A stretch of 64,000 bases of DNA from Xenococcus sp. MO_188.B8 (GTDB taxonomy: Bacteria > Cyanobacteriota > Cyanobacteriia > Cyanobacteriales > Xenococcaceae), in the NCBI GenBank assembly GCA_030065615.1, contig JASJDR010000018.1, positions 1 through 64,000 on the forward strand, read 5' to 3'. Numbering within the stretch: position 1 is the stretch's first letter; each line of letters opens with the position of its first letter. Positions 17,401-60,269 of the stretch are shown in pieces. A program made the translations under genes and the position numbers. The notes beneath the pieces are model-generated. The model had not been told where the DNA came from. It was given only the letters and a program-made list of their open reading frames with translations, and made no database searches.

Positions 17401-18294
17401 ATGAAGAGAAAAAAGCGAAATCGTTTTAATAAGTTGACCGGGGAACACCGGTCACCGCAGGCACCGTCGTCTCTTGGTGCGCGTTCCCTAGGTCGGGAGA
17501 CCCGACCGGGGTCGCACCGCTTTTACGGCGGTGTAACGGTGACTCCTTGGCTGGCAATATTGGCCATTTTAACTTGGAGCGCTTTATTATTGAACTATGC
17601 GGTAACTGGTCAGTATAAATTACTAATCCATCCTAATTATTTCTATTTAATGCTTGCTAGTAGTATTTGTTTATTGTTGCTCGGCATATTTCGTAGCTTA
17701 TTACTATTCAATTCTCCCCCAAATCAAACAGAAAAAAATGAACATATTACTTTGTTTCCTCCTGGTTTCGGAAGTCTCTTATTACTACTAGTCGCGATCG
17801 CAGGTTGGCTAATTCCCCCCAATGTTCTCAGCAGCACCGCCGCCTTACAAAGAGGAGTCGCTGAGACTTTACCTGCTACTAATTCCCAACCTCAAGCCTT
17901 TGTCACCAGTATTAAGCCCGAAGAGCGATCGCTTATAGATTGGGTCAGAACTTTAAATGCTTATCCTGAACCCGATGCTTATCAAGGGCAGCCAGCTCAT
18001 ATTACTGGATTTGTGATCGATCTACCCGAACTTCCCGACAATTACCTATTTCTGGCTCGTTTTATTATTACCTGTTGCGCGGTAGATGCCTACCCCGTCG
18101 GAATTCCCATACAATTGAATGATCCGCAAAAAAAATATCCCCCCGATACTTGGTTAGAAATCACAGGAAATATGACTACTGCTACTTTGGCAGTTCGCGA
18201 TCGCACTGAACAAATTCGGGAAAAACGGCAACTAGTTGTCTCCGCAACTACCATTAAACCAATTCCGACCCCTGCTGATCCCTATGGACATTAA
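17401..18294 (+). CDS. TIGR03943 (YcgQ-like) membrane protein with in-frame repeat insert
   Basis: A 297-residue protein partnering the preceding permease. After the N-terminus there are membrane helices near residues 48-70 and 76-98, a third near 118-135, and a C-terminal soluble domain with PAHITGFVIDLPELPDNYLFLARFIITCCAVDAYP (given here in parts) that identifies the family. Residues 14-48 are foreign: they are encoded by a 105-bp GC-rich repeat (17439-17543) flanked by TGAC. Removing those 35 codons restores MKRKKRNRFNKLT joined to PWLAILAILTW, which is a normal start for the family. The insert has no stop in this frame and is Arg/Gly/Ser-rich. A GTG at 17538 could also serve as an alternative start, avoiding the insert. 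Confidence 0.88.
   Translation: MKRKKRNRFNKLTGEHRSPQAPSSLGARSLGRETRPGSHRFYGGVTVTPWLAILAILTWSALLLNYAVTGQYKLLIHPNYFYLMLASSICLLLLGIFRSLLLFNSPPNQTEKNEHITLFPPGFGSLLLLLVAIAGWLIPPNVLSSTAALQRGVAETLPATNSQPQAFVTSIKPEERSLIDWVRTLNAYPEPDAYQGQPAHITGFVIDLPELPDNYLFLARFIITCCAVDAYPVGIPIQLNDPQKKYPPDTWLEITGNMTTATLAVRDRTEQIREKRQLVVSATTIKPIPTPADPYGH
17435..17543 (-). repeat. 105-bp GTCA-flanked nested-hairpin element inside a gene
   Basis: TGAC at 17435-17438 and TGAC at 17540-17543 bound a 105-bp element, oriented opposite to the one at 35907. Read on the minus strand it carries the outer stem GGTGCG/CGCACC, the spacer ACCCC, an inner hairpin GGTCGGG/CCCGACC, TAGGGAACG and AAGAG. Its ends are the same as those of the copy at 35907-36011, and both are exactly 105 bp long. 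It sits in the coding sequence of the TIGR03943 gene. Confidence 0.9.
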
Positions 18295-18319: not shown

Positions 18320-18508
18320 TGACGCTTGCGCAGCTCTACCCAAAGGGTCTCGACCCTGCGCCGTTGCACGGCGTTTATCCAGAGCACCGATCTGTTTACC
18401 CAGCTCCGTGTTCTGGGGACAAGCCCAGCTCCGTGTTCTGGGCTAAGGAAGCGGTGGAAGCCCGCGTCGGCGTAAGACGCAAGGGAATGTCCACCAAGAT
18501 ACGCGCGA
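18320..18508. repeat. Mosaic of dispersed GC-rich repeat modules
   Basis: It begins with GACGCTTGCG and GGTCTCGACCCTGCG and continues with a 72-bp block (18373-18444) that recurs exactly at 24899-24970. It ends with a module whose outer stem GGTGGA (18453) pairs with TCCACC (18490) around the inner hairpin GCGTC/GACGC (18464-18480). The same spacer words as in other modules (GGGAATG before and AAGA after the closing stem) are present. Open frames reading through it are artefacts. Confidence 0.82.
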
Positions 18509-24667: not shown

Positions 24668-25189
24668 AATCCTAACGAGGAAACTTTATTAATAGATATT
24701 AATCTATTAATTAATACTACATTTTATTTACTTCAATAATTGTTATTTATTCATCACTATTTTGGAGTTGAAGCGGGTCCGTGAAGTGAAAACTGGAGTT
24801 CTGAGAGAAAGGAGTCGGGAGCCAAGAGTTAGGCGTTTCAGGTTCAAAATATTGACATTTTTGAAAACTAGCGGTCGGACCCCGCGGAGGTTTCCTCCGT
24901 TTATCCAGAGCACCGATCTGTTTACCCAGCTCCGTGTTCTGGGGACAAGCCCAGCTCCGTGTTCTGGGCTTTGTAAGCAGCTAAGGAACGCGCACCAAGA
25001 GAGGGGTTTCAAAAAAGTAGATGCGGTTTGACTACAATATTGTTTGGGATGCAGTAGTCAAGAAAGTTTCTGCTCTTAATATTAAAATCAAAGGTATTTC
25101 AAAAAGGCTTAAAAAGAAGGACTAAATAGTTTAAAATTTCTGCTATATTTTCTCCTGTAGCTAGCAAATCTAATGTTTCTTCAAAGCAA
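24668..25189. other. Gene-free stretch containing a repeat mosaic
   Basis: Between the exoprotein and the anti-sigma gene. The stretch around 24868-25003 is the GC-rich repeat mosaic described separately. No gene is supported; open frames on both strands come from the repeat. Confidence 0.6.
24868..25003. repeat. GC-rich repeat mosaic sharing a 72-bp block
   Basis: Module start AGCGGTCGGACCCC, inner hairpin CGGAGG (24885-24890) / CCTCCG (24894-24899) with a TTT loop, then the 72-bp block found also at 18373-18444, then GGAACGCGCACCAAGAG. Opening stem GGTCGG and closing CGCACC do not match, so it is a recombinant or decayed copy. Confidence 0.8.
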
Positions 25190-34890: not shown

Positions 34891-35607
34891 TTACTTAACT
34901 TGCTCGTAACCTTTTTCAAAAGCAAAACGAACTAATTGAGTGCGATTTTCCAGATTGAGTTTATTTAAAATACTACTGAGATGGGTTTGAACAGTTCGAG
35001 GACTAATAAATAAACGATCGCTGATTTGTTTATTGGTAAAACCTTGAATAACTTCCCAGAAAACTCTCTCTTCTGCTGGTGTTAACGGTAAAGGTTCGGG
35101 GGATAATTGAGAAGAGGTTTGATTTCGTTGATCTGATATTATTGATTCTGAGTTTTCTCTATAGACTTTTCCTGGAATATTGCTTGGCGGATGACCTGCA
35201 AACTGACTCATAAGATGCACGATTTCAGCATGAATGCGTCGAGTACGCTCGATGGCGGACTCAATTTTAGCAATTAATTCTTTGACTTCAAAGGGTTTGG
35301 TCAGATAGTCATCTGCTCCGATAGAATGCCCTTGAATCCGATCTTCAACATCGCTTCTGGCAGAAAGAAAAATAAAGGGTATTAATTGTCCTGAAGGTTG
35401 TGAGCGCAAAATACGGCAAAATTCAAATCCATCCATCTCTGGCATCGAGACATCAGACACAATCAGATCAGGAGGGTTGTCGGTAAAAGACTTTAATGCT
35501 TGAGTTCCCGAAGCCACTGTTGTTACTTGGTATCCCTGCCGCTCCAAAGTGTGCTTGAGTACTGAACGTAAGATATGATCATCATCTACGATTAAAATCT
35601 TTTTCAT
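34891..35607 (-). CDS. NarL/FixJ-type response regulator
   Basis: A 238-residue two-component response regulator. Receiver domain residues 1-120: acidic pair DDD near residue 8, phospho-acceptor Asp52 in LIVSDVSMPEMDGF, and Lys104 in DDYLTKPFEVKEL. A linker of about 55 residues leads to a LuxR-type HTH (LTPAEERVFWEVIQGFTNKQISDRL, in parts, and SPRTVQTHLSSILNKL). The arrangement resembles NarL-family regulators such as cyanobacterial Ycf29/Rre1 types; I cannot say which. No histidine kinase gene is adjacent. Confidence 0.9.
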   Translation of the reverse strand: MKKILIVDDDHILRSVLKHTLERQGYQVTTVASGTQALKSFTDNPPDLIVSDVSMPEMDGFEFCRILRSQPSGQLIPFIFLSARSDVEDRIQGHSIGADDYLTKPFEVKELIAKIESAIERTRRIHAEIVHLMSQFAGHPPSNIPGKVYRENSESIISDQRNQTSSQLSPEPLPLTPAEERVFWEVIQGFTNKQISDRLFISPRTVQTHLSSILNKLNLENRTQLVRFAFEKGYEQVK

Positions 35608-35665
35608 TTTGGGCTATTTTAACTAAGTTTATCATCGTTTATCTTAAATTTAACTGGGGTTCCGC

Positions 35666-36035
35666 CCATTGAAGACTCAGGGCTGAAGGATTGACTTTTA
35701 ACTTCTACCTTTATTTGATGTTATAAAACTATTCCCAAGTCAATTATTCTAGTTAATGAAACAAATCGTAACTTATAATTCGGGCAAAACTATTGCCGAT
35801 AAACTCTTAAAATTTTACCAGGGCTCAGTCCATTGAAGACTCAGGGCTGAAGAATTGACTTTTAACTTCTACCTTTATTTGATGTTATAAAACTATTCCC
35901 AAGTCACCGTTACACCGCCGTAAAAGCGGTGCGACCCCGATGAGTTTTACTCATCTAGGGAACGCGCACCAAGAGACGACGGTGCTTGCGGTGACCGGTG
36001 TTCCCCGGTCAATTATTCTAGTTAATGAAACAAAT
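35666..36035. repeat. 100-bp direct duplication, second copy interrupted
   Basis: Copy 1 (35666-35766) begins CCATTGAAGACTCAGGGC and runs through TATTCCCAAGTCAATTATTC to GAAACAAAT. Copy 2 (35830-36035) is the same within a base or two, except that 105 extra bases follow the GTCA. Comparison gives the exact borders of the inserted element. Confidence 0.93.
35903..36011 (+). repeat. 105-bp nested-hairpin element with GTCA ends (occupied site)
   Basis: GTCA 35903-35906 and GTCA 36008-36011 flank the element (insert 35907-36011). Outer stem GTCACCG (35903) pairs with CGGTGAC (35989). The module stem GGTGCG (35928) pairs with CGCACC (35965) around hairpin GATGAG (35939)/CTCATC (35950). A terminal hairpin GACCGG (35993)/CCGGTC (36005) closes the right end. 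The empty site at 35739-35742 has one GTCA only. Confidence 0.92.
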
Positions 36036-36116
36036 TATCACTAAAATGAGCGAAAAGCTGATAGACTCTCCGAACGTTCCAGCTTTTCAATAGCTTAAGA
36101 ATTAAATGCAATTGCC

Positions 36117-36282
36117 CCTATCCCGGCACGCTTACGCCGATATGCGCTTGCGCTTGCGCTTGCGGAGCTCTACCCGAAGGGTCTGCTCTACCCGCAGGGG
36201 CAGCTCTACCCGAAGGGGCAGCGGTATCCTTATGCGGAGCGGTACCCTTTAGGGTTAGGACGCGGAGTTTGTCCACAGGGGA
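36117..36282. repeat. CGCTTGCG/TACCCGAAGG repeat block
   Basis: Tandem CGCTTGCG words followed by three copies of CTCTACCCGMAGGG separated by short spacers, then GCGGTATCCTTATGCGGAGCGG. Related blocks occur at 4290-4370, 18320-18360 and 57971-58060. The words are partly self-complementary, which suggests hairpins. Confidence 0.7.
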
Positions 36283-36365
36283 AAAAGGGGGCTTTGATTG
36301 ATTAATTAGTTAACGTTAGTTCGACGAAGTAGATAATGATTAGAGCGCTCGTCAATGTTCAATGT

Positions 36366-36782
36366 TCAATACTTACTGTCAAGTCTTGCTTTAATTTTGT
36401 TGAGATAAGATTGATTGTCTATGGGAGACCGAGGTAGGGGTAAATCGATATTAGGCCATAGAGGAACGTCAATACAAGGACATCCAGGAGATTGTATACC
36501 CAGATCTAGTTGCGGAATCGGCATTTGACACTTAACACAGGATACAATATCCCAAGCGGGGGAAAGTAAAACATCGATGGTGGGTTCAACTCCTTCTAAG
36601 TAACAATTCTTTCCTTCCAGCGCTAGCAATTTTTGCCAACAATCTTCAAATTCTGGCGAATATTGATTGTTAATGACTACTGTTTCTAGACATATCACTT
36701 CTTTGCCATTATCAATAACTAATTTCTTGCCTAATTGAAACCAACAGGCAAGATATTGTTTTACTTTCTTGGTCGATGCCAT
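36366..36782 (-). CDS. Conserved cysteine-containing protein, unknown
   Basis: A 138-residue soluble protein I do not recognise beyond its cyanobacterial style. It has five or more cysteines, among them CVKCQMP and GCPCIDVP in its C-terminal part, which could form a metal site. The middle has the acidic EGKNCYLEGVEPTIDVLL pattern. It starts at an ATG with a short basic N-terminus (MASTKKVKQ) and has no signal peptide or membrane segment. It lies beside a repeat block, and no neighbour hints at its function. Confidence 0.6.
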   Translation of the reverse strand: MASTKKVKQYLACWFQLGKKLVIDNGKEVICLETVVINNQYSPEFEDCWQKLLALEGKNCYLEGVEPTIDVLLSPAWDIVSCVKCQMPIPQLDLGIQSPGCPCIDVPLWPNIDLPLPRSPIDNQSYLNKIKARLDSKY

Positions 36783-36875
36783 TTACGTAACCCCAAGAGA
36801 CAAAATCAAGGACAAGGAATCTCTAGCTGATAATCAGATTATTTTATATCTTCTCAATATGGAATATATTTGCTC

Positions 36876-36933
36876 GCTGAGCCAATTTTGTTCCTTCTAA
36901 TAATGCTGAGCCAATTTTGTTCCTTCTAATAAT
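36876..36933 (+). repeat. 29-bp tandem duplication
   Basis: The 29-bp unit starting GCTGAGCCAATTTTG occurs twice back to back (36876-36904, 36905-36933) without a mismatch, so it is recent. Confidence 0.9.
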
Positions 36934-37262
36934 AATGTTACATCAGGGCGACCGCCCACATCGCTTAATAGATATACAATAAATCTATAAAATATCTTAA
37001 AATATTAGAGATTCAAGGTTATTTAGTCTTGAATAGGATATTTAGCGGTTCTATCAGGTACATCGTTTTGATTCAACCAAGATCAGTGGTTCGTGACATC
37101 AACAAAGCGAATTCGATTCTAAAACAAAAATACAACTAGCTTTAGGTGATTTCTAACAAAGAACATACCATTGACGCTTGCGTAGCTCCGGGATGGGGGC
37201 TAAAGAGTGATTGATGAATTCGTATCACTAGTTAATCCTGTCTCTTGGTGCGCGTTGCGACT

Positions 37263-37288
37263 TAGGGGCGCATCGCGATGCGCCCCTA
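37263..37288. repeat. 26-bp perfect palindrome
   Basis: TAGGGGCGCATCG and its exact reverse complement meet without a loop. This is the widespread TAGGGGCG...CGCCCCTA intergenic palindrome known from many bacteria, cyanobacteria included. Confidence 0.9.
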
Positions 37289-37511
37289 CAGATGAATAAT
37301 AAATCTGATCAAAACCTGGTAAAAATATTTCTGGAAATAACCTTAGTTGCTGCATATCTACCGAAACTTGCTGTCTCAAGAAAAGATTGCCAGCTTAGGC
37401 ATTGAAAAAAAGCGATTAAAAGCTAGTTGAAATTATCGTTATTGTTATCTGGAAACTGTACTCAGTTGACTTAATATTGTTCCTCCCTACATGTTGAAAG
37501 ACCTGTAATAT

Positions 37512-37569
37512 TGACCGGGGAACACCGGTCACGCCAGGCACCGCCGTAAAAAGACGGTGTAACGGTGAC
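37512..37569 (-). repeat. Minimal 54-bp GTCA-flanked element
   Basis: TGAC at 37512-37515 and TGAC at 37566-37569 bound a 54-bp insert with the same ends (CGGGGAACACC, GGTGTAACGG) as the 105-bp copies but without the inner module. The centre is just CACCG-CCGTAAAAAGA-CGGTG. The length difference from the full copies is 51 bp. Confidence 0.88.
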
Positions 37570-37946
37570 CTGTTTGAACTACTGATGAAATAGCTGAATG
37601 ACTCAAGATTTGTTATAATCTGGGTTTCAAGCCAGCTAATTAGTTGATTACTGATAAGCTGGTGGTTCACAGTTCGTGGGACTTAATAGGTATTAGTATA
37701 GACAGCTAATACCTTTTTCTTGTTCTATTTTTTTCATCTCTAGCCCTAGGATAAAAAATTTTTCGATTAATGCCCTCCGTCAAATGACGTAACTTATTTA
37801 CGCTTATTTATCTATTAGGAAAGAGATGGGAGAGACGGAAAGATAAATAATTTTCACTAATGATTTGGCCTATTGCCTTGAAGAAGAATATGTTCTCTTA
37901 AATGAACTAGGATAAATATGTAGACTGATTGACGATTTTCGATTAC

Positions 37947-38930
37947 ATGCAATTTATTGATTTAGCAGAAATAGAGGTAGTAGCAGGGAAAGGTGGAGAT
38001 GGTATGGTAGCCTTTCGCCGGGAAAAATACGTCCCCGCAGGTGGTCCGGCTGGCGGAAATGGAGGACGTGGTGGTTCAGTGATTGTCGTTGCGACAGAAA
38101 GGTTGCAAACTTTATTAGATTTTAAATATGCTCGGACCTTTAAAGCTGAAGATGGCAAAAAAGGTGGTTCGAGTAATTGTACTGGAGCGTCAGGAAGCGA
38201 TCGCATAATTGAAGTTCCTTGCGGTACTATGATTTATGATGCGGATACTGGTGAATTAATCGGTGATTTGGTAGTTGCCGAACAAGCTCTCTGTGTTGCC
38301 CAAGGAGGTAAAGGAGGTTTAGGAAATAAGTATTTTCTCAGTAATCGCAATCGCGCTCCTGAACATGCTTTGCCAGGATTAGCAGGAGAACAAAGACGCT
38401 TACGTTTAGAGCTAAAACTAATTGCCGAGGTGGGGATTATTGGTCTACCTAATGCGGGCAAATCGACTCTAATCTCTGCTTTATCCTCTGCCAAACCGAA
38501 GATTGCTAATTATCCTTTTACTACCTTGGTACCTAATTTGGGGGTAGTAAAGAAGCCATCGGGAGATGGTACGGTATTTGCTGATATTCCAGGGTTAATT
38601 TCTGGGGCGGCAGCGGGAATTGGTTTAGGTCACGATTTTTTACGGCATATCGAACGAACTCGGTTATTACTCCATTTAATAGATGTTACTGCTGCAGATC
38701 CCATTGCCGATTATCAGACAATTCAAGAAGAATTAGAAGCTTATGGTCATGGATTATCAGAACGAACTCAGATTATTGCTTTTAATAAAATCGATTCTGC
38801 AGATCAAGAAAGTTTAGCATACGCGATCGCCGAATTAAAAACTATCACTTCTGTCCCTACGTTCACTATTTCAGCCATAACTCGTGAAGGATTAAATCCA
38901 TTACTACAAGAAATTTGGCAACATCTATAA
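37947..38930 (+). CDS. obg: Obg family GTPase
   Basis: A 327-residue Obg/CgtA GTPase, started at the ATG at 37947 (MQFIDLAEIEVVAGKGGDG); the frame continues 6 codons upstream to a TTG. The Gly-rich Obg fold fills residues 1-158 (GGPAGGNGGRGGSVIVV). The G domain shows GLPNAGKST (G1), FTTLVPNLG (G2), FADIPGLISGA (G3) and AFNKIDS (G4). It binds ribosomes and acts in 50S assembly and stress control. The optional C-terminal OCT domain is absent, as usual in cyanobacteria. Confidence 0.95.
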   Translation: MQFIDLAEIEVVAGKGGDGMVAFRREKYVPAGGPAGGNGGRGGSVIVVATERLQTLLDFKYARTFKAEDGKKGGSSNCTGASGSDRIIEVPCGTMIYDADTGELIGDLVVAEQALCVAQGGKGGLGNKYFLSNRNRAPEHALPGLAGEQRRLRLELKLIAEVGIIGLPNAGKSTLISALSSAKPKIANYPFTTLVPNLGVVKKPSGDGTVFADIPGLISGAAAGIGLGHDFLRHIERTRLLLHLIDVTAADPIADYQTIQEELEAYGHGLSERTQIIAFNKIDSADQESLAYAIAELKTITSVPTFTISAITREGLNPLLQEIWQHL

Positions 38931-56151: not shown

Positions 56152-56542
56152 CCACTCACAAGTGTTTGAGTGGGTAAAATATTCAAACCACGAAGTTAGA
56201 CGAGCGACCCCGCGACGACGAAAGTCGCAAGCGGTCAGACCCCGCGCCGCCGAAAGGCGTTTACCCAGCTCCGTGTTCTGGGCAAGGGAATGCTGACCAA
56301 GAGAGGGAATGCGCGAGGAAGTTTTTCTTCGCTGTAGGGCAGGGCTTGCCCGAACAGGCTAGTTGCAAGACTAGTAAAAAGCGATGCAGCGCGGTCTTGG
56401 GGGTTCACCCCATGAGCGACTGCATCAAGAAGCTTGTGGATCAAGCTCTGGCGGGGGTGTGTCTTCACTTTCAATAGTGTTCTCATTTAGTCAACTTGGG
56501 ATGAAGCAAGAATCCAACGATTTGAAATCGTTGGAGTGTCAA
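56152..56542. mobile_element. IS200/IS605-type remnant without transposase
   Basis: A left hairpin CCACTCA (56152)/TGAGTGG (56167) and a right hairpin CCAACGATTT-G-AAATCGTTGG (56514-56534) followed by AGTGTCAA. GAAGCAAGAATCC...AGTGTCAA is, from memory, the usual right end of cyanobacterial IS605-family elements. No tnpA or tnpB remains can be read; the roughly 390 bases between are mostly repeat DNA, so this is at most a non-autonomous derivative. Confidence 0.5.
56204..56300 (+). repeat. Nested-hairpin module pair
   Basis: A first module GCGACCCC with hairpin GCGAC-GACGAAA-GTCGC is followed by a second whose outer stem GGTCAG (56233-56238) pairs with CTGACC (56293-56298). Inside are CGCC-GAAA-GGCG and CCCAG...CTGGG. 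AAGAG follows, as in other copies. Confidence 0.8.
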
Positions 56543-57970: not shown

Positions 57971-58100
57971 TGACGCTTGCGCAGCTGGTCTCGACCCTGC
58001 GGGGCGACCCCGAGACCCTTCGGGTAGAGCTGCCCCTTCGGGTAGAGCTTCGCAAGCGCAAGGAGTTTTACTCATCTAGCGGTCAGACCCCGCGTTATCC
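57971..58100. repeat. CGCTTGCG repeat with nested palindromes
   Basis: CGCTTGCG...CGCAAGCG ends enclose GGTCTCG...CGAGACC and two CCCTTCGGGTAGAGCT words. The block then runs into GGAGTTTTACTCATC and AGCGGTCAGACCCCGCG, the words of the nested-hairpin module family. It lies just downstream of the pentapeptide-repeat gene. Confidence 0.72.
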
Positions 58101-58130: not shown

Positions 58131-60269
58131 TTAAAGTCCTAACAGAGAAGAAATATGAGGAGCAATTTCTTTAAAGATGGTGATAAAAGCTGCTCCTGCC
58201 GGTAATAATTTAACAATTCTCTCTAAATTCCTCAGAGCTTTACTTGCTTTTTCCTTTTGAATGACAATATCTTTCTCTTGGCTAGCCGTGGTCAAATTAT
58301 CAATTGCATCGAGGCTATCTTGTTTATCTTCTGAGGGGAAATTGGCATCGTTTTCAATGGCTTCTATTAATTTACCAAGTAGCTGCTGGAGATTGAGTTT
58401 ACTATAATCGGTTGAAGCTGTTCGTTGATTGAGATTATTGGCAACAGTTCCCTGGATATCTCCTTGATTAAAAGAACCTGCACCAGAGGCATTTACTGTA
58501 CTATTTTTAATATTAATATTTCGGCTTTGGTTAATTTCTTTCACAGTCTTCTCATCCATATGTTCTTGATGGGCTAGAAATATATTATCTGATTCTTTTT
58601 GTGCTAGAACCATAGCGATTTCTTTAATATCCTTAATTCTCTCATCTTTTTCTTCTAACTTACCTTCTAATTTTGCTTGTTCTTTAGCTGCTTCTAATCT
58701 CGCTTCATAGTTTTCTAAAAAATTATGTTCAACTTCAGCTTTATCTGTATCTTCGGTGACTTCTAAAGTTAATAAAACATCTTCTCCTTTTCTTTCAATA
58801 CCTTTAATTGAATCGGGATTAATATTAGAATTCTCTGCCATGAGTTGCTGAAATGCTTGATGGAATGCTTCTGGATTAGCTCCTTTGCGTAATAAAATCT
58901 CTACAGTGTTGATAACTTCCTGATAGAGTTTGGTGAAATCTCCTGATTGAAAAACCTTTTCTGGATCGTGGGGACGACGTTCCCGACTTCCTAAGTCGTT
59001 AGCATTTTCTAAGAGAAAAATATATTGACAATCAACTTTGTCTAATTTGGTTGTATGGTCGATATTCCAAGATTCTAAACAGGCTCCTGTGAGATAAGCG
59101 GTCGTGAAATCTGTACCAACTGCTTGGACTTTTGTTAAATTAGCATCTTTTAAATGAGCATTAGTTAAGGTTGCTTCGCTGAGATTGGCATATTTTAAAT
59201 TAGCTTGTTCCAGATTCACTCCTGCCAGATTTGCTCCTCGTAAATTAGCATTTTGATAGGATTTTTTATAACCATCTTTAGTGATTAATAATTCCCTGAC
59301 ATTGGCTTGAGATAATATGGTATTTCCTAACCTTGCTAGATCGAGTTTTTCAGCAGATGACCAACAAGTATGGGTTAAACTATTTGCCCTAAGATCGGTA
59401 TTTTTGAGTGTTGCTTCGGTAAAATTGGCACCAGAAAGCTCCGCATCATAAAAACTTGTCCCTCCCATTGTCCCAAAAGCGACTCCCACTGAGCGAATCC
59501 AAGGATCTCGGAGATCTCCTTTAAAACTGCGCCAACCAAGATAAGCTCCCAATAACGCAACAGCGACAGCGACAGCGACAGCAGCGAGAGCGACAACGAG
59601 AGCGACAACGAGAGCGACAGCGACAGCGAGAGCGACAACTCCAGCTCCAGCGACAGCGAGAGCGACAACTCCAGCTCCAGCGACAGCGAGAGCGACAGCT
59701 CCTGCGACAGCTCCTGCGACAGCTCCTGCGACAGCGACAACTCCAGCTCCTGCGACAGCGACAGCGAGAGCGACAGCTCCTGCGACAGCTCCTGCGAGAG
59801 CGACAGCGACAGCTCCTGCGACAGCTCCTGCGAGAGCGACAGCAACAGCTCCTGCGACAAAACCCTTACGCAGAGTATAAAAGAGAAAAACAACTAACAC
59901 AATTAAAGAAACAATCCCTGCAACAAAATTTGTTGTATCGCTAGGAGCTGAAAATAATGTCATTAAAAAAGCTATCCAGATTGAGAAAAATCCCGCTATC
60001 GCTGAAAAGAAAAGAGAAAGGATTACTAATAAGATTTTCCACCGTTTCTGTAATCCTGCTGTTGCATTAGTAAAATTTGCTCCTGCTAGCTGAGCTTCTT
60101 TAAAATTAGTCCCTCGAATATCTGCATGGCTAAAATTAAAACCTTCGAGATGCTTTGCTTGCAAATTCGCTCCCCTAAGATCTGGTTTAACAGTATGATT
60201 AGCTGCTCGCCATTGATTCCAAGCCTCTTTTCCCTGTTCTAGTTTGGCAAGATGTCGCTTATTTGCCAT
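58131..60269 (-). CDS. Pentapeptide-repeat membrane protein with Ala/Val/Gly tract
   Basis: A 712-residue protein. Pentapeptide repeats (A(D/N)LxX) occur at about residues 31-72 and again at 278-300 and 340-410 (NLRGANLAGVNLEQANLKY, in parts). Two normal membrane helices lie near 76-100 and 113-133. Then comes a striking tract of about 110 residues (138-248) made almost only of Ala, Val, Gly and Leu (AGAVAGAVAVALAGAV and similar), encoded by hexanucleotide-like DNA repeats at 59556-59860. The C-terminal 300 residues are charged and coiled-coil-like, with INIKNSTVNASGAGSFNQGD near 600. Function unknown. Confidence 0.85.
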   Translation of the reverse strand: MANKRHLAKLEQGKEAWNQWRAANHTVKPDLRGANLQAKHLEGFNFSHADIRGTNFKEAQLAGANFTNATAGLQKRWKILLVILSLFFSAIAGFFSIWIAFLMTLFSAPSDTTNFVAGIVSLIVLVVFLFYTLRKGFVAGAVAVALAGAVAGAVAVALAGAVAGAVALAVAVAGAGVVAVAGAVAGAVAGAVALAVAGAGVVALAVAGAGVVALAVAVALVVALVVALAAVAVAVAVALLGAYLGWRSFKGDLRDPWIRSVGVAFGTMGGTSFYDAELSGANFTEATLKNTDLRANSLTHTCWSSAEKLDLARLGNTILSQANVRELLITKDGYKKSYQNANLRGANLAGVNLEQANLKYANLSEATLTNAHLKDANLTKVQAVGTDFTTAYLTGACLESWNIDHTTKLDKVDCQYIFLLENANDLGSRERRPHDPEKVFQSGDFTKLYQEVINTVEILLRKGANPEAFHQAFQQLMAENSNINPDSIKGIERKGEDVLLTLEVTEDTDKAEVEHNFLENYEARLEAAKEQAKLEGKLEEKDERIKDIKEIAMVLAQKESDNIFLAHQEHMDEKTVKEINQSRNINIKNSTVNASGAGSFNQGDIQGTVANNLNQRTASTDYSKLNLQQLLGKLIEAIENDANFPSEDKQDSLDAIDNLTTASQEKDIVIQKEKASKALRNLERIVKLLPAGAAFITIFKEIAPHISSLLGL
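59556..59860 (-). repeat. Hexanucleotide-type low-complexity coding tract
   Basis: About 300 bases built from GCGACA, GCGAGA, GCTCCT and ACAACT words on the plus strand. On the minus strand this encodes Ala/Val/Gly/Leu residues; another minus frame is also open and reads SLSLSQELSQEL. Such tracts change length easily by slippage. Confidence 0.9.

Follow-up and report, generated by a model that had tools for sequence, protein, structure and literature searches.

Small hairpin elements of 54 and 51 bp that nest in one another and probably move as single-stranded DNA in a Xenococcus genome

The window analysed here is a 64,000-nucleotide stretch of Xenococcus sp. MO_188.B8 (contig JASJDR010000018.1, assembly GCA_030065615.1, positions 1 to 64,000), and at 37512-37569 it carries TGAC followed by a 54-bp unit whose last letters are again TGAC, much as the original prediction had described it. 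The full pattern of this core element occurs once in the window and its left end, TGACCGGGGAACACCGGTCA, four times, each with an expectation of 0.00 in shuffled sequence (100 shuffles for the full pattern). With up to three mismatches, TGACCGGGGAACACCGGTCA is found at 42 places in the 8.26-Mb genome, one of them entered on both strands. The 37512-37569 copy is a slightly decayed minimal form: it has CACGCC in place of the usual CACCGC, a change that weakens its lower stem. Its hairpin loop, the chief landing site of further inserts in other copies, reads TAAAA in place of TTTTA and is thus inverted relative to the ends, as had been proposed; the same inversion is present in two more copies (L016 and L018), making three of the 11 copies of 53-54 bp, and is compatible with a ‘hairpin flip’. 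The features of the window are collected in Table 1.

Table 1. Hairpin elements and related features in the window (positions of the whole stretch).
Feature	Position	Strand	Basis or remark
Left TGAC, target tetranucleotide, probably host-derived	37512-37515	+	varies among copies (TGAC, TAAC, TTAC ...), right one constant
54-bp minimal core element	37516-37569	+	sequence, copy survey, shuffle test
Left hairpin TGACCGG-GGAACA-CCGGTCA	37512-37531	+	DNA fold
GTCA inside left hairpin, able to pair with left or right TGAC	37528-37531	+	
Core hairpin CACCG...CGGTG, inverted loop	37539-37559	+	sequence
Right TGAC, most likely the element's own	37566-37569	+	TGAC in 31/31 own and 51/51 relatives' copies with a right end
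105-bp form with left TGAC; one module (17470-17520) in core loop	17435-17543	+	
105-bp form with its TGAC; module 35926-35976	35903-36011	-	
Empty-site duplicate of the 35903-36011 flanks, single GTCA at 35739-35742	35646-35790	+	
378-bp composite, 225 bp once modules are removed; holds other inserts besides three nested 51-bp modules, of which 4921-4971 is intact	4829-5210	-	
51-bp module outside core	18451-18501	-	covariance model, 63.8 bits
51-bp module head; remainder interrupted by further hairpin sequence	24985-25002	-	
51-bp module head; remainder interrupted by another hairpin (CCCAGAACACGGAGCTGGG)	56287-56304	-	

Homology to Xenococcus PCC 7305 starts at 37574, just to the right of the element; the left flank is not conserved, and no clean empty site for this copy was found against that genome. 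The adjoining segment (37574-37810) is noncoding, lies upstream of obg, has no Rfam match and is 87% identical to Xenococcus PCC 7305, which its neighbours are not; it is possibly a conserved leader or small RNA. A 46-bp hairpin at 37241-37288 starts like the 51-bp module described below (TCTCTTGGTGCGCGTT) and continues with a different stem. Another short-repeat family (GCTCTACCCGAAGGG) lies near these elements at 36153-36250, 4313-4342 and 58016-58062, and seventeen overlapping repeat copies, set 12 or 18 bp apart and probably coding, occupy 59530-59889.

Forty-one core copies of the genome were read, 31 of them with a recognisable right end and 10 without. Counted without the left TGAC, the lengths of the former fall into a few classes, namely 54 bp (seven copies), 53 bp (four), 105 bp (eight) and 156 bp (three), with single copies of 57, 164, 165, 190, 194, 276, 323, 378 and 661 bp. 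The ladder of 54-, 105- and 156-bp forms, which the original prediction had named as its own check, was thus recovered from the genome. The 105- and 156-bp forms are the minimal form with one or two insertions of exactly 51 bp, and removal of these modules in silico, under an excision score and threshold chosen after the first modules had been seen, returns all eight 105-bp and all three 156-bp copies to 54-bp cores that are nearly alike in sequence; the 276- and 378-bp composites both reduce to 225 bp. Modules enter the core loop at CCGTCG^TTTTAC, an internal loop of the core on the other strand at GGTGCC^TGCGGT, and other modules at TGCGCG^TTCCCT and GTTCCC^TAGGTC, at Ts that are unpaired in the fold. 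Two copies (L005 and L019) share flanks and core and carry the module at different points. The ladder and the collapse to the 54-bp core bear out the idea that longer forms grew as modules entered the loop of a minimal one.

Two other histories of the ladder were weighed. The short form could be a remnant, the long composites being ancestral and their modules lost by precise excision, which would leave the same clean 51-bp difference, and L042 and the 43-, 57- and 71-bp forms do look like deletion remnants. Against this, 53-54 bp is the commonest size class both here (11 of 31) and in relatives (19 of 51), and the modules enter at several points, which requires insertion, so that this history is highly improbable; nor is the short form a deletion of one particular long copy, since minimal cores lie at 11 different sites. 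Alternatively, the ladder could reflect tandem-repeat slippage of units of about 51 bp with no module being mobile. Modules can indeed sit head to tail (two in tandem in L035), but most are nested or solitary at unrelated sites, some are reversed, and a module-bearing gene has paralogs that lack exactly one unit; slippage was rejected for most copies on the grounds of nested, reversed and solitary modules, and as a general account it is scarcely credible. Growth by insertion is the reading retained here.

The same core occurs in relatives, in which 60 of the approximately 84 copies counted in six genomes were read. Among the 51 with a right end, 18 are 54 bp long (19 in the 53-54 bp class) and eight are 99 bp, the latter mostly through a different 45-bp insert; lengths of 105, 150 and 156 bp and others are also present. 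This second insert type of about 45 bp (GAGGGGCTGTC ... GCCCCGT), which yields 99-bp elements, was seen in L348, L358, L362, L366, L379 and L389. Over both sets, 64 of 82 lengths are multiples of three, as are 19 of 33 distinct lengths (p = 0.004), an excess that is only suggestive in lengths sharing ancestry; throughout, copies are related by descent and counts do not represent independent events.

The original prediction had treated the 51-bp sequence as a module in the loop of the core, and it does enter there; what had been missed is that the module is mobile in its own right and far outstrips the core in number, and exceeds it in range as well. With a covariance model derived from 17 copies, 150 of 2155 first-look candidates were scored, and the genome holds at least 152 matches. 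Of 26 further genomes in the family 25 carry the module, mostly without the core; it also occurs in seven of 33 genomes from other families of the order. The core is patchier, being found in this genome and in six of the same 26; a genome of the same genus (G001) lacks it and has 90 module matches, and the single two-mismatch core matches in each of four distant genomes are at about the level of a reversed-pattern control. The 51-bp module is therefore an element independent of the core. The genome, of the Pleurocapsales, stands near Xenococcus sp. PCC 7305 (Obg protein 88% identical) and Hyellaceae, and plasmid and phage collections gave no element match. In one genome of another family (G039), module copies (L164, L294, L296, L298, L300 and others) share two flanking contexts and therefore probably ride on a larger repeated element.

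The two elements differ in their ends and targets. The core inserts 3′ of TNAC. On the left, 31 of 41 own copies and 42 of 60 copies from relatives have TGAC, the others mostly TAAC or TTAC (28 of 101 departing from TGAC, 10 own and 18 from relatives); on the right, all 82 copies in which that end is recognisable have TGAC (Fisher p = 9e-9, for copies that are not independent). Because the left tetranucleotide varies and the right one is constant, the left is most likely target and the right part of the element. Directly 5′ of the main hairpin, at its foot, stands GTCA, which pairs with the left TGAC in the single-strand DNA fold of the 54-bp element; in the minimum free energy fold of both 105-bp forms its partner is the right TGAC. 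This layout matches the guide logic of IS200/IS605 elements and, by analogy, of REP sequences (PMC8266576), GTCA being the putative guide of the core. The module has the architecture TNTCTT-stem-loop-GC, with a foot TCTT that is invariant in 17 of 17 copies; it inserts at C/T^T, including the loops of the core and of other modules, and its right end reads GC^T. A target duplication of its second letter was considered and rejected as not consistent.

Movement of both elements is visible in comparisons of filled and empty sites. A tandem duplication within the window holds the 105-bp element at 35903-36011 in one copy and no core in the other, and at this single site the empty copy keeps one GTCA and there is no target duplication. 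For the module, a TnpB gene (L070) carries an in-frame copy, and its paralogs L285, L289 and L282, two of them in this genome and the third in G006, are a net 51 bp shorter there, with the frame open in all. Mobility of core and module is supported by this core-empty duplicate and these paralogs. Orthologous empty sites sought in G001 with a 20-kb query met broken synteny, and no close homolog without the insert was found for a FIST gene bearing a core (L033).

From these observations a joint model can be drawn that we consider probable: a non-autonomous 54-bp hairpin, likely moved as single-stranded DNA by a Y1 transposase, and a second, nesting 51-bp hairpin. The core would insert 3′ of TNAC without target duplication; its transfer would most likely proceed on a single DNA strand, with a Y1 (HUH) transposase acting in trans and the foot tetranucleotide GTCA serving as a putative guide to both TGAC cleavage sites, as in IS200/IS605. 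The second mobile hairpin, with its C/T^T target, would enter Ts left unpaired in the core loop or in other modules, and because modules insert into both, repeated insertion would produce the series 54, 105 and 156 bp. With both unit lengths divisible by three and several frames free of stops, insertions in genes could be translated through and tolerated by host proteins.

The Y1 transposase remains a presumed partner, since GTCA-stem-TGAC ends were seen at none of the 25 Y1 loci whose end anatomy was inspected (L043-L057, L312-L321). A module match by the covariance model lies at just two of the 15 Y1 loci of this genome, one of them weak. Compared with its paralog L044, the Y1 transposase gene in L045 (1265-1717) has 17 extra residues in frame close to its start, derived from a different hairpin sequence, and a 51-bp module lies directly past the end of the ORF; this module is taken as an ordinary insertion. 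An association in G013 (97 module matches, seven Y1 genes), with two Y1 genes within about 1 kb of modules, is not convincing, and no Y1 type obviously tracks modules across four genomes, module-rich or module-free, compared by scores and ORF lengths. That the same elements are moved by another enzyme (a DDE transposase, a serine or tyrosine recombinase, or IS proteins acting on short ends) would accord with the lack of a Y1 gene with matching ends and of a Y1 type tracking the modules. Such an enzyme has an outside chance of being responsible, but the lack of a target duplication at the empty site, the one-sided TNAC target, the tetranucleotide at the hairpin foot and the insertion at an unpaired T are features that single-strand transposition typically shows. 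Within the Y1 reading, the guide logic, judged by sequence, suits the core and not obviously the module: the foot TCTT is not complementary to the presumed cleavage site and has no pairing with CT. A TnpA-REP-like enzyme would be plausible for the module because TnpA-REP is described as cleaving at CT (PMC8266576).

The stems of the modules carry information on the level at which the hairpins act. In the 17-copy set, in which the outer stem but not the inner stem had served as a selection criterion, 12 of 16 pairs change on both sides, with 65 cells changed on two sides and two on one side. In a larger set, for which 91 distinct modules were selected solely by their head and tail, inner stem cells comprise 839 Watson-Crick, 6 G-T and 65 mismatched pairs, and the outer variable pairs 361, 0 and 3, respectively, against 116 Watson-Crick, 85 G-T and 436 mismatched in a slid control; earlier stem statistics, for which modules had partly been chosen by pairing, were set aside. 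RNA helices are expected to show G-U intermediates. Because G-T intermediates are nearly absent here, the counts point to hairpins at the DNA rather than the RNA level. This bears on a further explanation, that the repeats are regulatory RNA hairpins such as terminators or attenuators, held by selection and spread by recombination. A T-run often follows the module hairpin and is terminator-like; yet G-T pairs make up only 6 of 845 paired inner cells and 0 of 361 outer ones, Rfam has no match in 35600-38100 at E values up to 1, and many copies lie within coding sequence, and a role as regulatory RNA is accordingly very unlikely. Thirty inner arms were found with ten outer stems; since six inner arms recur with two or more different outer stems, hairpin tips and bases appear to have been exchanged between modules.

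Many of these elements lie inside genes. Module placements were taken from the part of the 152 matches that was read (30 loci plus 60 stretches) and from the core loci, and 25 of 98 distinct placements fall within ORFs of at least 110 aa with at least 25 aa on either side; some of these ORFs, situated in clusters of repeats, may not be genuine. Module-bearing ORFs with Pfam support are TnpB (L070, L081, L119), IS transposases (L069, L077, L082), a GIY-YIG protein (L127), an ABC transporter (L136), an AMP-binding enzyme (L145) and a member of the ATP synthase gamma family (L067); in several in-frame placements Pfam domains stand on both sides of the insert, and one of the 14 module-bearing proteins scanned (L129) had no Pfam match. 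Short core elements lie within ORFs of at least 130 aa in 17 of 67 cases, every one with a length divisible by three. Ten core-bearing ORFs were scanned: the insert lies within the FIST (L033), GAF (L375) and CHASE6_C (L366) domains, a match to a histidine kinase domain begins directly after it in another, and L385 had no Pfam match. Two of the six module frames are nearly always free of stops (76 and 67 of 78); a general selection for open frames is unsupported, two of the six being less open than shuffled sequence.

Taken with the nesting and the stem counts, these placements allow a broader picture that we offer as tentative, somewhat short of an even chance: ‘matryoshka’ transposons, that is, single-stranded DNA hairpins of 45-54 bp that would land by preference in unpaired loops of other hairpins, grow recursively by multiples of three, remain translatable within genes, swap their tips and have their arms kept complementary by hairpin-templated correction of DNA.

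Several known systems resemble these elements in part. IS200/IS605 elements and their derivatives likewise insert 3′ of a short target without duplication and combine a foot tetranucleotide on a hairpin with a target motif on the left and their own cleavage motif on the right, a guide logic described in PMC8266576. The core here differs in its size of just 54 bp, in a single main hairpin that would act for both ends, in the complete complementarity of its putative guide GTCA to TGAC, in carrying no gene for an enzyme and in the nested modules. REP/BIME/REPIN sequences, TnpA-REP (RAYT) systems and GTAG- or CGTC-tagged palindromes (PMC3733652, PMC3116915, PMC8266576) share the short palindromes, the unpaired foot motif and the high copy number, and the CT site reported for TnpA-REP is similar to the right end GC^T of the module and to its C/T^T targets. 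Unlike REP, the foot motif is TCTT (module) or GTCA (core), neither GTAG nor CGTC, and whole 51-bp units are inserted precisely and recursively nested. REP sequences are mostly extragenic; here many copies lie in coding sequence, with 25 of 98 module and 17 of 67 short core placements inside long ORFs. Rickettsia palindromic elements are also palindromes in frame in protein genes, but as described in PMC10969869 they are set apart by a length of about 150 bp, compared with the self-nesting, cyanobacterial elements of 54 and 51 bp. The small dispersed repeats of cyanobacteria (SDR, Elhai et al. 2008), as described in papers citing that work, are likewise very small mobile repeats with precise insertion points, such as SDR5, which inserts between nucleotides 3 and 4 of HIP1 (PMC4390886); the target found here differs from this one. 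Judged by titles and abstracts, literature matches to words of the element sequence fell solely in human-gene papers, and searches of the literature on in-frame palindromes and SDRs in cyanobacteria, with Elhai et al. 2008 represented by citing papers, turned up no nested element of this kind. The elements thus likely represent a new form of small mobile palindrome, with an IS200/IS605- or REP-like action, that sits in genes as Rickettsia palindromic elements do, and for which membership in none of these groups is shown.

Short palindromic repeats are common in bacteria, and their movement is seldom visible in sequence. With its clean empty sites, exact size ladder and one-sided target, this system opens the movement of REP-like repeats to direct test. 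That stems so variable hold hardly any G-T intermediates is a strong sign, read from sequence, that selection or correction acts on the DNA itself, and insertions, where translated, would add stretches of 17 or 18 residues to host proteins, a possible route to new protein segments.
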